Shown here piece after piece: positions 2,452 to 59,812 of a stretch of DNA of 59,927 nucleotides. Below the pieces are notes generated by a model. It worked only from the letters and a program-made list of their open reading frames with translations. It was not told the origin of the DNA and searched no databases. A program made the translations under genes and the position numbers. Source of the DNA: Candidatus Sulfopaludibacter sp. SbA3 (GTDB taxonomy: Bacteria; Acidobacteriota; Vicinamibacteria; Vicinamibacterales; UBA2999); NCBI GenBank assembly GCA_945903265.1, contig CAMDNQ010000020.1, forward strand, positions 1-59,927, in the 5' to 3' direction. Position 1 is the stretch's first letter; every line of letters begins with the position of its first letter.

Positions 2452-3669
2452 ATGGCGGCGAGCGACACCATCGAGGCCGAAGGACACCTGATCGACTCGG
2501 GTCTCCTCTCGGCGATCTTCGACAAAATCATCGAGTTCAAGGCGGCGTACGAAATCGTCGATTTCGACATCGGCAAGACCAATGACGATGCGTCGCGGAT
2601 CAAGATGCGCATCACGGCGGCCGACACCGCGCTGCTCGACGAGCTGCTCCAGCAGTTGACGGGGTTTGGCTGCCACCCGGTCAAGGAGCGCAACGCCATC
2701 CTGAAGCCGGCCGAGAAGGACCGCTGCGTCCCCGACGACTTCTATTCCACGACCAACAACCGCACCCATATCCGCGTCGGCGGCAAATGGGCGGAAGTCG
2801 AACAGCAGCGCATGGATGCCGTCATCGTGGTGAGCGAGGGGCGCGCCGCGTGCCGCAAACTGCGCGACGTACGCGCCGGCGAGCCGGTCGTCTGCGGCCA
2901 CGAAGGCATCCGCGTCACGCCGGAGTTCAAGGAACGCGACCGTCTCGGCTTTGCGTTCATGAGCAACGACGTTTCGTCCGAGCGCCGCGTCGAGGGTGTC
3001 GTCTCCAAGATCGCCGACATGATGCGGCAGGTGAAAAAGAGCGGCGGCCGCATCGCCGTCGTCGGCGGTCCCGTCGTCGTCCATACGGGCGGCGTCGAGC
3101 ATTTTTCCGAACTGATCCGGCTCGGCTACGTCGACGTGCTGCTGGCGGGCAACGCGCTGGCGGTGCACGACATCGAGTACGCCCTGTCCGGCACGTCGCT
3201 CGGCATCGACCTCATGGCCGGCGCGGCGGTCGAGCAGGGCCACCGCAATCACATGGCGGCCATCAACACCGTGAACCGGGCCGGCGGCATCCGCGAGGCC
3301 GTTCAGACAGGCGTCCTGAAAAAGGGCGTGATGTACGAGTGCGTCAAGAACGGGGTCGACTACGTGCTGGCCGGCAGCGTCCGCGACGACGGCCCCCTGC
3401 CCGATACGCTGATGGACCTCGAAGAGGCACAGAACCGGTATTCGGCGGCGCTCGGCAACAACGTCCAGCTCGTGCTGATGCTCGCGTCGATGCTGCACAG
3501 CATCGGCGTCGGCAACATGCTGCCGTCGTGGGTCCGTGTGGTGTGCGTCGACATCAACCCGGCGGTCGTCACGAAGCTATCGGATCGAGGGTCGTCCCAG
3601 ACGGTCGGCGTCGTCACGGACGTGGGGCTGTTTCTCCACCGGCTCGCCGAACGCCTCCGCACAGGCTGA
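2452..3669 (+). CDS. TIGR00300 family / ornithine cyclodeaminase-type protein
   Basis: A protein of about 405 residues of the LOR/SDH-related TIGR00300 family. Members include archaeal ornithine cyclodeaminase and the C-terminal half of cyanobacterial AgrE/ArgZ, which convert ornithine to proline with NAD. Recognisable segments are EAEGHLIDSGLL at the N-terminus, the middle HIRVGGKW region and a Rossmann-like GGRIAVVGGPVVVHTGG, followed by VLLAGNALAVHDIE and VDYVLAGSVRDDGPLP. A longer frame begins with TTG at 2371, but family homology starts near the ATG at 2452, which also has TACAAT 6 nt upstream. The stop codon lies inside a REP-like hairpin, so the last residues come from that repeat. The exact substrate here is inferred from the family. 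Confidence 0.8.
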   Translation: MAASDTIEAEGHLIDSGLLSAIFDKIIEFKAAYEIVDFDIGKTNDDASRIKMRITAADTALLDELLQQLTGFGCHPVKERNAILKPAEKDRCVPDDFYSTTNNRTHIRVGGKWAEVEQQRMDAVIVVSEGRAACRKLRDVRAGEPVVCGHEGIRVTPEFKERDRLGFAFMSNDVSSERRVEGVVSKIADMMRQVKKSGGRIAVVGGPVVVHTGGVEHFSELIRLGYVDVLLAGNALAVHDIEYALSGTSLGIDLMAGAAVEQGHRNHMAAINTVNRAGGIREAVQTGVLKKGVMYECVKNGVDYVLAGSVRDDGPLPDTLMDLEEAQNRYSAALGNNVQLVLMLASMLHSIGVGNMLPSWVRVVCVDINPAVVTKLSDRGSSQTVGVVTDVGLFLHRLAERLRTG

Positions 3670-3718
3670 AGCCTGCGCTCTACACCGTTCGCGTAGCGCG
3701 GGGGCTTCAGCCCCCGCG
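3662..3718. repeat. REP/BIME-like pair A (two head-to-head GTAG hairpins)
   Basis: The first hairpin is CAGGCTGAAGCCTG (3662-3675, perfect), ending in CTAC at 3680-3683, i.e. GTAG on the other strand. The second begins with GTAG (3693-3696) followed by a perfect 22-nt palindrome at 3697-3718 with 10-bp arms around TC. GTAG followed by a hairpin is the hallmark of REP elements mobilised by RAYT (TnpA_REP) transposases. The first hairpin contains the TGA stop of the upstream gene; the second ends just before the htpX -10 box. Confidence 0.75.
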
Positions 3719-9864: not shown

Positions 9865-9960
9865 GTCCGGCTAAAGCCGGACACTACGTACGTAGCGCCT
9901 GCCTGAAATCGACACCACGGTACGAATACGACCGTACGTAGTGTCTGCCTTTAGGCAGAC
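9865..9960. repeat. REP/BIME-like pair B
   Basis: The perfect palindrome GTCCGGCTAAAGCCGGAC (9865-9882) is followed by CTAC (9884-9887). On the right, GTAG (9938-9941) leads into the perfect palindrome GTCTGCCTTTAGGCAGAC (9943-9960). A third GTAG at 9892-9895, followed by GCGCCTGCCTGAAA, looks like a decayed copy. The element sits between the small His/Cys protein and its co-oriented TonB receptor gene, where the hairpins could lower read-through or stabilise mRNA. Confidence 0.75.
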
Positions 9961-11960: not shown

Positions 11961-12014
11961 CCGGGTCCAAAGGACCGGGCCTACATATGTAGCGCAGTTC
12001 CGGCTACAGCCGGA
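11961..12014. repeat. REP/BIME-like pair C between convergent genes
   Basis: The left hairpin has arms GGTCC/GGACC (11964-11976, loop AAA) followed by CTAC (11981-11984). GTAG (11989-11992) starts the right unit, with the palindrome TCCGGCTACAGCCGGA at 11999-12014. It lies just after the phoD stop and before the stop of the convergent amidohydrolase, where it could act as a bidirectional terminator. Confidence 0.65.
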
Positions 12015-12023
12015 CACGACGTA

Positions 12024-15432: not shown

Positions 15433-15509
15433 GAAGGCACGAAGAAAACGAAGAACACGAAACCTTAAGGTGCTTCGTGACCTTCGACGCCTTCGCGTCC
15501 TTCGTGGTT
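15427..15509. repeat. ACGAAGG-type intergenic repeat with 11-bp inverted arms
   Basis: AACCACGAAGG (15427-15437) and CCTTCGTGGTT (15499-15509) form perfect inverted arms. Between them the motif ACGAAG recurs (GGCACGAAGAAAACGAAGAA, and CTTCG on the right). One arm contains the GTG start of the GH5-like gene and the other the stop of the VWA-TPR gene, so the repeat defines both gene boundaries. Confidence 0.7.
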
Positions 15510-57110: not shown

Positions 57111-57127
57111 CGACCCGTAGGGGCACC

Positions 57128-58021
57128 ATGCGCACGGTCAGCATTTCCCGCCTGGCGCTGTTCGCGGTCGTGTCGGCGGGGATCCTCGCCGGCGGCGTTA
57201 CCGGTGTGCGCGCGCAGGCCGGCCTTCGCGAGCGGACGGTGTTCGTCAGCGCCGTCGATTCACGCGGCAATCCCGTCGAAGGCCTCGGCCCCTCCGATTT
57301 CACCATCACCGAAGACGGACGCCAGCGCGAAGTCCTTCGCGTCACGCCCGCGCTCGAGCCGATCGACATCGCGCTGCTCATCGACAACAGCGCCGCCGCG
57401 AATCGGACGATCGCGCCGACGCGCGAAGCCGTGCGGAAGTTCGTCGCACAGATGGCAGTCGGCAATCAGATCGCCATCATCGGCCTCGCCGATCGTCCGA
57501 CGATTCTCGTCGATTTCACGTCGAGTCCCGAGCGGCTCGAGCAGGGCGTCGGACGGCTGTTCGCCATGAGCGGCAGCGGCATGACGCTGCTCGACTCGAT
57601 CGTGGAGACCTCGAACGGCATGCGGAAACGCGACGCGCCGCGGGCGGTGATCGTGCCGATCATCACGACCGGCGCCGAATTCACCAACCGGTACGCGCGC
57701 GACGTGACCGCCGCCCTCAAGAATTCGGGCGCGGCGCTGCACACGATCGTCGTCGGCAACCTGACCATGGACTCGACCGAAGAACGGGAGCGCGCGCTGG
57801 CCGTCGGCCAGGGGTCGCGCGACTCGGGCGGCCAGCACGTGACCCTGCTGGCGGAAACCGCCATCGAGTCCGCACTGCAGAAGCTGGCCCGCGAGCTGGC
57901 CTCGCAGTACAAGGTGGTCTACGGCCGGCCGGAATCGCTGATCCCGCCGGAGAAGATTGTCGTGGGGACCAAGCGCGAGGGCGTCACGATGCGTGGGACG
58001 CCCGCACGCGGCCAGCCTTGA
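57128..58021 (+). CDS. VWFA-related exported protein, MIDAS incomplete
   Basis: A 297-residue protein with signal peptide 1-28 (GVTGVRAQ) and one VWA domain. VFVSAVDSRGNPVEGLGPSD is the typical lead-in. The metal-site motif reads LLIDNSAAANR, i.e. D-x-S-x-A rather than DxSxS, so metal binding may be weakened. VIVPIITTGAEFTNR is the equivalent of the second loop. It precedes a closely related VWA gene by 7 bases, probably a tandem duplicate that has diverged. Confidence 0.85.
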   Translation: MRTVSISRLALFAVVSAGILAGGVTGVRAQAGLRERTVFVSAVDSRGNPVEGLGPSDFTITEDGRQREVLRVTPALEPIDIALLIDNSAAANRTIAPTREAVRKFVAQMAVGNQIAIIGLADRPTILVDFTSSPERLEQGVGRLFAMSGSGMTLLDSIVETSNGMRKRDAPRAVIVPIITTGAEFTNRYARDVTAALKNSGAALHTIVVGNLTMDSTEERERALAVGQGSRDSGGQHVTLLAETAIESALQKLARELASQYKVVYGRPESLIPPEKIVVGTKREGVTMRGTPARGQP

Positions 58022-58028
58022 GCCTGAT

Positions 58029-58991
58029 ATGAAACGAACCGTCCTCGCCGCCGCCGCGCGCAGGCTGAAGCATGCGCTCTACGCACGTAGGGCGCATGCT
58101 TTAGCGTGCGCTCTGGCGTTTCTCGCCGCCATTCCGGTCCTGGCGCAGCGGCCGCAGTTCCGGACGACGGTGGACATCGTCTCGTTGAATGTCACCGTGG
58201 TGAACGGGTCCAGCCAGTACGTCACCGACCTCGAGCAGGAAGACTTCTCGGTTTTCGAGGACGGCGTCAAGCAGGAGCTCATCTTCTTTACGCGGCGGCC
58301 GCAGCCGATCGCCCTGTCGCTCCTCCTCGACAGCAGCGCGAGCATGGAAAACAACATGCAGACGCTCCAGGTCGCGGCCACCAATTTCGTCAAGAGGCTG
58401 AAGCCCACCGACCTCGCGCAGGTGATCGACTTCGACAGCCGCGTATCGATTCGGCAGGGATTCACTGGCGATCAGGCGGCACTCGAAGCCGCGATCCAGC
58501 AGACGATCTCCGGTGGCTCGACCTCGCTGCACAACGCGATTTACGTGTCGCTGAAGGAGCTCGCCAAGGTCAAGGTGCAGGCTGACGAGGACGTGCGCCG
58601 CCAGGCGCTCATCGTGTTCTCGGACGGGGAGGATACGTCGAGCCTCGTGTCCTTCGAGGAAGTGCTCGACCTGGCCAAACGCTCCGAGACGTCGATCTAC
58701 ACCATCGCGCTCCGCGGGAACGACAACACCACCCGCGGTTTCCGCGAGGCGGAATTCATTCTCCGGCAGCTGGCGCAGGAAACCGGCGGGCGGTCGTTCT
58801 TCCCGCAGAAGGTCGACGACCTGAACGGCGTCTACGGGCAGATCGCCGACGAGCTCGCCAGCCAGTACACCGTCGGTTATTCCTCGAAGAACCCCCGCGT
58901 CGACGGCGCGTTCCGCCGGATCGTCGTCCAGCTCGCCCGACCCAACGTGACCGCCCGCACGAAGCGCGGCTACTTCGCCCCGGGACGTTGA
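58029..58991 (+). CDS. VWFA-related exported protein with a REP-derived signal-peptide region
   Basis: A 320-residue protein with an N-terminal hydrophobic region and cleavage site near AAIPVLAQ. The VWA domain has VDIVSLNVTVVNGSSQYVTD and an intact MIDAS LLLDSSASM, then ALIVFSDGEDTSSLVSF and ADELASQYTVGYSSK. Residues 11-28 (RRLKHALYARRAHALACA) are encoded by a REP-like hairpin pair inserted in frame, leaving a long basic n-region. The stop overlaps the TTG start of the next gene, so they form one unit with the first VWA gene. Confidence 0.85.
   Translation: MKRTVLAAAARRLKHALYARRAHALACALAFLAAIPVLAQRPQFRTTVDIVSLNVTVVNGSSQYVTDLEQEDFSVFEDGVKQELIFFTRRPQPIALSLLLDSSASMENNMQTLQVAATNFVKRLKPTDLAQVIDFDSRVSIRQGFTGDQAALEAAIQQTISGGSTSLHNAIYVSLKELAKVKVQADEDVRRQALIVFSDGEDTSSLVSFEEVLDLAKRSETSIYTIALRGNDNTTRGFREAEFILRQLAQETGGRSFFPQKVDDLNGVYGQIADELASQYTVGYSSKNPRVDGAFRRIVVQLARPNVTARTKRGYFAPGR
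58059..58111. repeat. REP/BIME-like pair D inside a signal-peptide coding region
   Basis: The left unit GCAGGCTGAAGC at 58060-58071 leads to GCTCTAC and differs from pair A (3661-3683) by one base over about 22. GTAG (58087-58090) leads into the near-perfect hairpin GCGCATGCT-TT-AGCGTGCGC. The whole insert stays in frame with the VWA gene and encodes part of its signal peptide. Confidence 0.7.
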
Positions 58992-59812
58992 ACGTCCTTC
59001 CCCTCGTCTTATATGCCGCCGCCGGCGTGGCGTATGCCATGCACTTCGCGCGGCGAAAGCCTCATATCGGCCGTCTCGCCACGACCCTCCTGATCCTCGC
59101 CGCGCTGAGCCATACATTTGTCATCGGCATGCAGACGATGGAGGTGCGGCACGTGCCGTTTGCCAATCCGTCGCGCGCGATCTCGACGTTCGTGTGGCTG
59201 CTCGCGCTCTCCTATCTGTATCTGGAGATCACCACCGACGAGCGCGCCATGGGCGCCTTCATCATGCCGATGCTCTTCGGCCTGCAGTCGATTCCGGCCA
59301 TCTGGCCCGGCGTTGAGCGGATGGATCCGGTACTCGACAGCCCGTGGTTCTGGGTCCACGTGTCGTCGCTGCTCTTTGCGTACGCCAGCCTGGGGCTCGC
59401 CGGCGTCCTCGGTCTCACGTACGTGGTGCAGTTCAAGGAAATCAAGAAGAAGCATCTCGGGTACCTCTACACACGCCTGCCGTCACTGCAGACGCTGGAC
59501 GTCATGAATTCGAGGGCCGTCACGATCGGCTGGATCTTCCTGACTATCGGTGTCGCGGTGGGCGCGTTCTGGACGGGGCAGGCGCGCGCCATCACGCCGG
59601 ACGACCCGAACCTGCAGGCGATGTCGCTGAACGACCCGAAGATTCTGATGGCGGTACTGACGTGGGGCGTGTATTCGTTCGGGATGTTCGCGCGCCGGAC
59701 GATGGGGTGGAGCGGCCGGCGTGCCGCATGGCTGTCGGCCTTCGGGTTTGCGATCGTGCTGCTCAACTTCGTTCCGGTCAGCTATTTCGTCACGACCAGC
59801 CATACGTTCTAG
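58988..59812 (+). CDS. CcsA/HemX-like cytochrome c assembly protein
   Basis: A 274-residue protein with eight membrane helices. The CytC_asm signature includes WFWVHVSSLLFAYASLGLAG and a terminal SLNDPKILMAVLTWGVYSFG; His residues (SHTFVIG, WVHVSS, TSHTF) are available as heme ligands. The full tryptophan-rich WWD loop of CcsA is shortened, and the gene stands directly before hemA, which favours the HemX type that tunes glutamyl-tRNA reductase level. It starts with TTG overlapping the VWA stop. Confidence 0.85.
   Translation: MNVLPLVLYAAAGVAYAMHFARRKPHIGRLATTLLILAALSHTFVIGMQTMEVRHVPFANPSRAISTFVWLLALSYLYLEITTDERAMGAFIMPMLFGLQSIPAIWPGVERMDPVLDSPWFWVHVSSLLFAYASLGLAGVLGLTYVVQFKEIKKKHLGYLYTRLPSLQTLDVMNSRAVTIGWIFLTIGVAVGAFWTGQARAITPDDPNLQAMSLNDPKILMAVLTWGVYSFGMFARRTMGWSGRRAAWLSAFGFAIVLLNFVPVSYFVTTSHTF

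Follow-up and report, generated by a model that had tools for sequence, protein, structure and literature searches.

The 5' end of a VWA protein gene in Candidatus Sulfopaludibacter sp. SbA3 raises the question of whether a dispersed palindromic repeat can become part of an export signal, and whether the cell tolerates or uses it there. An earlier note, made from the sequence alone, had described a pair of REP elements at this place as domesticated within a signal peptide. The window, by which we mean the whole stretch of DNA analysed (59,927 nucleotides), belongs to contig C20 of a 3.52 Mb genome that is 98.9% complete, and MAGs labelled Acidobacteria hold the nearest named relatives of the gene at 58029-58991. 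Genes were called with a simple, purpose-made codon model. The relevant features of the window are listed here.

57125..58021, plus strand: upstream VWA gene, whose stop codon precedes the next gene's ATG by 7 nt
58029..58991, plus strand: VWA protein gene (acidobact_VWFA), 320 aa; TIGR03436 at 212 bits, PF13519
58029..58148, plus strand: predicted signal-peptide coding part of the VWA gene, MKRTVLAAA-ARRLKHALYARRAHALAC-ALAFLAAIPVLAQ, with a putative cleavage site
58057..58111, no strand assigned: REP doublet, two inverted REPs with the GTAG tags inside; the net in-frame gain is taken as 54 nt
58059..58082, plus strand: REP half 1, an exact match to CGCRSGCTNNAGCNYGCGCNCTAC, coding for RRLKHALY (n-region charge)
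58087..58110, minus strand: REP half 2 (reverse), an exact match to CGCRSGCTNNAGCNYGCGCNCTAC, coding for RRAHALAC (charge and start of the hydrophobic core)
58988..59812, plus strand: downstream gene, cytochrome c assembly protein family (PF01578)
3660..3716, no strand assigned: second REP pair, less exact (1 and 2 mismatches), at a 3' gene end, an ordinary location
9865-9884, 11998-12017 and 15491-15507: copies of the GTCCGGCT and CCACGAAG families, the CCACGAAG copy being classed as intergenic

The inverted repeat in the VWA gene consists of two 26 nt arms (58058-58083 and 58086-58111), 88% complementary and spaced by 2 nt, which lie within codons 10-28. Inverted arms, exact family matches in both halves and 53 exact genomic copies of the half-element pattern CGCRSGCTNNAGCNYGCGCNCTAC, against 0 for the reversed control, bear out the presence of a REP pair. 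The span first given for it, 58059-58111, holds at the 3' end but is slightly short on the 5' side, where the element runs from about 58057. The pair is in frame and encodes residues 11-28, 18 residues of a 40-residue signal; coordinates and frame agree with the earlier reading, and the observation that a VWA gene contains an in-frame REP pair in its signal peptide is confirmed. Rfam gave no match at the REP pair, and one tRNA elsewhere in the window. An RNA fold of 141 nt around the pair reached -74.6 kcal/mol (z -4.21; 0/200 shuffles were equally stable); the hairpin alone (58056-58115) folds at -47.9 kcal/mol and the single arms at -10.3 and -19.3.

Signal peptides in all genes were judged by simple measures of charge and hydropathy and by eye, rather than by a predictor. 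The predicted Sec features of the VWA protein are a charge of +7, VLAQ cleavage residues recognised by eye and a core hydropathy (max12KD) of 2.67; Tat targeting, prompted by the RR pairs, was set aside by eye. When 54 nt were omitted in silico, the flanks joined as MKRTVLAAAALAFLAAIPVLAQ, an ordinary short signal peptide with a core hydropathy of 2.61 (2.30-3.11 in five relatives), as had been anticipated for removal of the element. With ATG, GTG and TTG scanned, the first in-frame start after ATG 58029 is GTG 58170, past the signal peptide, so that a later start would lose the signal.

The VWA protein has a match in 59/59 genomes. Thirty loci were taken, 29 of them from other genomes, the distant ones of which need not be orthologues; 29 relatives' segments were tested and 28 are informative, since one (L024) ends at a contig end. 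The four closest relatives (G022, G013, G026 and G011) share the same upstream gene, and with GTG starts assumed they have 24, 23, 25 and 27 residues before RPQFR, compared with 40 in the window gene. Their signals are ordinary ones, for instance VHRLAVAAACLVLVAALPARTGAQ in G022 and VKRLILGLLIGVAVAAAVPASAQ in G013, and the orthologue comparison proposed in the earlier note thus came out as expected, with a short ordinary signal at the same place in the nearest relatives. Neither RRLK nor RRAHA peptides occur in the 29 segments, and the best match to the REP DNA in them has 5-9 mismatches, the range of 150 random segments (chance level). The finding named beforehand as speaking against the idea, the same residues in orthologues without hairpin-forming codons, was encountered in none of the 28 readable loci. 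A wider contig scan (45 loci), from which very near records may be missing, returned G022, G013 and G011 as best and nothing closer. The flanks are too diverged for pairwise DNA alignment to place the empty site uniquely. The spacing between the upstream stop and the VDIVSL anchor (148 nt in the window) was rejected as proof of an insert, since 2 of 14 loci exceed it through other linkers (L018, 151 nt; L022, 157 nt). Two further VWA relatives, L035 (G024) and L038 (G029), carry a similar in-frame stretch, CTTCGCCGAGGCTACGGGGGAC and CCTCGCCGAGGCTTCGGGGGAC, in the linker after the signal peptide; these resemble another repeat.

Each REP half terminates in CTAC, which reads GTAG on the opposite strand; the pattern demands this tag, yet copies found by whole-element BLAST mostly show it too. 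A REP half, CGCGCAGGCTGAAGCCTGCGCTCTACG, forms an 8 bp hairpin (-16.9), and 13 of the 34 REP clusters of the source genome are inverted dimers (+-). The family agrees with the GTAG superfamily of REPs in tag, stem, inverted dimers and location. Exact copies of CGCRSGCTNNAGCNYGCGCNCTAC occur in 6/59 genomes, the source genome included (G004 154, source genome 53, G002 20, G022 15, G017 1 and G031 1). A census of the source genome covered 38 sites, comprising exact copies and some with one mismatch; a degenerate copy between genes (C2:163141, L112) was omitted. Thirty-five of these sites are intergenic or at the 3' ends of genes, a few of them inside the last 16 codons, in keeping with the statement that REPs usually stay outside coding regions. 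The remaining three are at 5' coding ends, all in predicted signal peptides. Three relatives gave 94 sites (19 in G002, 60 examined in G004, whose genome has 154 halves, and 15 in G022), 91 of them intergenic or at 3' ends. No clear in-signal case was seen at these 94 sites; three '5end' or 'body' calls (L122, L073 and L154), which by eye resemble gene-call noise, were left uncounted, and at four sites (L121, L140, L157 and L177) the frame is open through the REP and the start lies downstream of it. The difference between 3/38 and 0/94 in-signal sites gives a Fisher p of 0.02. Open frames of the consensus REP read RRLKPALY, RRAQASACA, AQAEACAL and VERRLQPA, of which the first two kinds appear in the three signals.

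Y1_Tnp had no match in the source genome at E<=1e-3. An ORF with a Y1_Tnp domain and the HVH motif was found in G004 (L115:1240-2274), flanked by exact REPs of the window family, the arrangement expected of a RAYT; the Y1_Tnp of G002 (L114) has no exact REP nearby. The source genome seems to keep its REPs without a transposase, while G004 has the RAYT-like ORF.

The in-frame REP in the window is not isolated, as two more genes of the same genome have the same REP in a signal peptide.

C2:43042: PQQ/cytochrome protein, with the REP called inside the 5' coding end
C11:19152: cytochrome c (CYQCH), with a REP; the call began just downstream, and the start was moved by hand to the ATG before the REP

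The start at C11:19152 was moved because the later one leaves no basic residue, and the site was reclassed by hand from 'between genes' to 'signal peptide'. The two signals read MRRSHFVT-RRLKPALY-VTLAAAMAAAWPAPALAQ, with GGAG ahead of the ATG, and MRNLPR-RRAHASACAL-LAVTLTTIGIAQAQ. Both hold single REP halves, with hairpins (-16.9 and -14.3) weaker than that of the window pair. The REP was absent from the relatives read (6 of the PQQ protein and 9 of the cytochrome c), in which the best matches had 5-9 mismatches, compared with 0 and 1 in the source genome's genes. In the PQQ protein the core is weaker with the REP (max12KD 1.88) than in two relatives (2.67 and 2.84).

High-copy repeats in the signal region of the cytochrome c (L211; relatives L213, L216 and L217) differ between the four genomes, each having a family of its own there. 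Within the signal or directly behind it, G013 has GTAGGGCGGGTCC..., G014 has GTGTCCGGCT..AGCCGGAC and G002 has CCACGAAGG.... With up to one mismatch, their genomes hold 26, 364 and 191 copies, respectively, and reversed controls gave 0-1 per genome; the G014 pattern is nearly palindromic and therefore stands for fewer sites than its 364 matches. The G002 cytochrome c signal, MKTFQPRRPRRSRSLLGFFVCFATFVSFVVTLAAQ, is almost wholly one inverted repeat, the arms of which give PRRPRRSRS and FVCFATFVSFVV.

A second repeat family, CCACGAAG, was examined at 20 sites of the source genome and at 56 sites among the matches listed in G002 (191 matches); the first 20 G002 regions were chosen mostly for inverted pairs, and the others are most of the remaining listed exact matches. 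At these 76 sites in two genomes the inverted repeat seems to encode parts of 12-14 signal peptides. One arm gives a basic n-region, and the other, often read as FVxFV, a hydrophobic core. An inverted repeat can spell both, since basic codons such as those in CCACGAAGG can be read as F-V-x-F-V in reverse complement.

Source genome: L309, CytoC_RC; L317, solute-binding protein; L318, SpoIID; L319, no Pfam match
G002, with Pfam match: L287, cytochrome c; L297, VWA; L302, gamma-glutamyltranspeptidase; L303, solute-binding protein; L354, M16 peptidase; L361, TPM; L375, SpoIID
G002, without Pfam match: L293, L369 and L374

In nine of these (L287 in G002:C96, L293, L297, L302, L303, L309, L318, L369 and L375) the inverted CCACGAAG appears to encode much of the signal. 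Two starts are uncertain, that of L374 because no charged start lies upstream and that of L361 because it is weak; the n-regions of L293 and L297 have net charges of -2 and -1, poor for Sec. L317 and L319 read the repeat in frames other than FV; at L305, L308, L382 and L294 the start lies downstream of the repeat. A clear non-signal case is L358 (G002:C40), a cytoplasmic UbiE with CCACGAAG in frame. All the in-frame starts listed for this UbiE-like methyltransferase are within the repeat, which may supply its start codon.

Among the in-frame 5' cases with a Pfam match, 10/11 belong to commonly exported families, the exception being UbiE (L358); we take the export assignment of these families from general knowledge. 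Against a rough background of 15/44 window genes (15/62 others), this gives p = 1.6e-4. Counting proteins exported by their looks, with L374 excluded, gives 13/14 (p = 8e-6), a partly circular count. Both are subject to a bias, in that starts in 5' repeat genes were chosen so as to yield a signal, and a core encoded by the repeat lends a protein an exported appearance. The FV frame is used in 10 of the 13 signals that have a second arm (p = 0.0016 vs 1/3). Counted by hand without pre-selection for signals, it is used in 12/20 open second arms (p 0.013 vs 1/3), and in 12/18 when the often-closed third frame is excluded (p 0.12 vs 1/2). Owing to these unselected counts, a preference for the FV frame is weakly supported and suggestive only.

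In two proteins the CCACGAAG repeat occupies the same place in two genera with conserved upstream DNA, namely the solute-binding protein (L317/L303), in which the pair is read in different frames, and SpoIID (L318/L375). The source genome's solute-binding copy (L317) resembles a lipoprotein signal (LVCVGC). The CytoC_RC relative in G022 reads MTDHPRRLRRIRRHRWMPVVAFVFLAVDVGFVALSAQ, and its DNA aligns to the source genome's repeat signal better than 2000/2000 half-wise codon shuffles. It contains 0 CACGAAG and 2 CTTCGTG motifs, where the source gene has 3 and 2; the other 11 CytoC_RC relatives read have 0 CACGAAG and one CTTCGTG in total. This suggests from sequence that repeat-derived signals can persist as the palindrome decays, the alternative being that the G022 signal arose independently of the source genome's repeat signal.

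For the window gene, it is very probable that a GTAG-type REP doublet (REPIN-like) was inserted in frame in the VWA signal, where it would have replaced the front of the core, and that the signal still works. The doublet would have been mobilised, probably by a RAYT transposase (none was found in the source genome), and would have entered after codon 9 with the frame preserved. The original hydrophobic core would thereby have been split and its front replaced by 18 repeat-encoded residues, with RRLKHALYARRA extending the n-region, whose charge would rise from +2 to +7, and HALAC joining the leftover core ALAFLAAIPV. Sec signals tolerate long basic n-regions, and REP open frames spell basic or mildly hydrophobic residues; the REP-bearing signal is therefore probably functional and the protein presumably exported. 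Direct support comes from the dispersed repeat in frame in the signal, the ordinary signals of the nearest relatives and the near-absence of the family from other coding sequence. We infer the insertion event, RAYT mobility, retained export and lack of harm; the evidence base for the window copy is one MAG.

An assembly error in that single MAG or a wrong gene start could imitate such an insertion, and the gene caller did place the C11 cytochrome c start downstream of the REP. However, the reading frame is kept, three genes are affected, the frame and the point where the mature protein begins are set by the relatives, and the window gene has no further start codon before the end of its signal, all of which makes an artefact very improbable. 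The REP might also act as an RNA element, the hairpin, which begins some 28 nt past the first AUG base, slowing translation or setting mRNA stability, with the encoded residues incidental. Its very high stability (-47.9 kcal/mol), the translational coupling to the upstream gene that the 7 nt gap makes likely and the RNA roles proposed for many REPs in the main text of PMC3733652 would suit such a role. Yet the REP is translated regardless, no later start keeps the signal, and the two other REP signals have only single halves with weaker hairpins (-16.9 and -14.3), so we regard an RNA role as unlikely.

An insertion that is simply tolerated has about an even chance of being the right account of the window copy: the signal peptide would accept 18 extra residues, only such insertions would survive and the REP would be unused. 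The copy was seen in one genome only, 35/38 sites avoid gene bodies and 5' ends, and there are 0 clear cases at the 94 sites of three relatives. What argues against neutrality concerns the phenomenon rather than the window copy: neutrality is unlikely for the second family because its repeat often supplies the hydrophobic core itself, and the solute-binding protein and SpoIID repeats keep their place in two genera. With one genome showing the window copy, tolerance and use are not separable for it; the in-frame REP in the signal stands, and the earlier term 'domesticated' goes further than this evidence.

Beyond the in-frame doublet, repeats in this bacterium and one relative seem to supply parts of several further export signals, apparently because their reading frames spell charged and hydrophobic stretches. 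We put forward, as a proposal that could equally prove right or wrong, that mobile palindromes serve this bacterial family as a permanent supply of signal peptides, that an insertion brings an n-region arm and a core arm, and that signals of this kind take the place of ordinary ones in conserved exported proteins and persist across genera as the palindrome decays. If true, one insertion of an inverted repeat would provide a ready-made export signal. The origin of signal peptides is seldom readable, since they diverge so fast; here the source DNA is recognisable and relatives keep ordinary signals, and it would become possible to test directly how a repeat-derived export signal is acquired, which frame it takes and how it is retained.

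In the literature searched, outside which most subscription papers and supplements lay, no paper was found that describes REPs serving as signal peptides, such a recurrence or coding by two arms. The available text of PMC3733652 (Di Nocera 2013) describes the GTAG REP superfamily as 24 families with a terminal GTAG tag, a short stem, inverted dimers and a mostly intergenic location. The window family shares the tag at one end, the short stem, the inverted dimers and the location mainly between genes, and the window dimer has its tags inside. According to the same text, some REPs are intragenic, and over half of these insertions consist of dimers or groups coding for 20-30 aa; many N-terminal REPs may be extragenic, genes for DNA synthesis and repair are singled out, and 'signal peptide' and 'signal sequence' have 0 occurrences in the main text. 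Rickettsia palindromic elements (Ogata 2000, 2002, as cited in PMC3733652, PMC10969869 and PMC2229807) are palindromes of about 150 bp in frame in protein genes. Compared by description, they are alike in being in-frame palindromes; they are longer and occur in many kinds of protein, whereas the in-frame copies of the window's REP family are in signal peptides. The direct precedent for a palindrome in a signal peptide is RU-2 of Yersinia, which the available text of PMC2759123 (Delihas 2007; reviewed in PMC2229807) reports as a mobile palindrome in the predicted signal peptide of YPO1552. RU-2, a MITE-type element of 168 bp, lies in a 144 aa putative exported protein, whereas here a REP doublet in a conserved family is involved, several genes are affected, and the two arms of the second family appear to give n-region and core.
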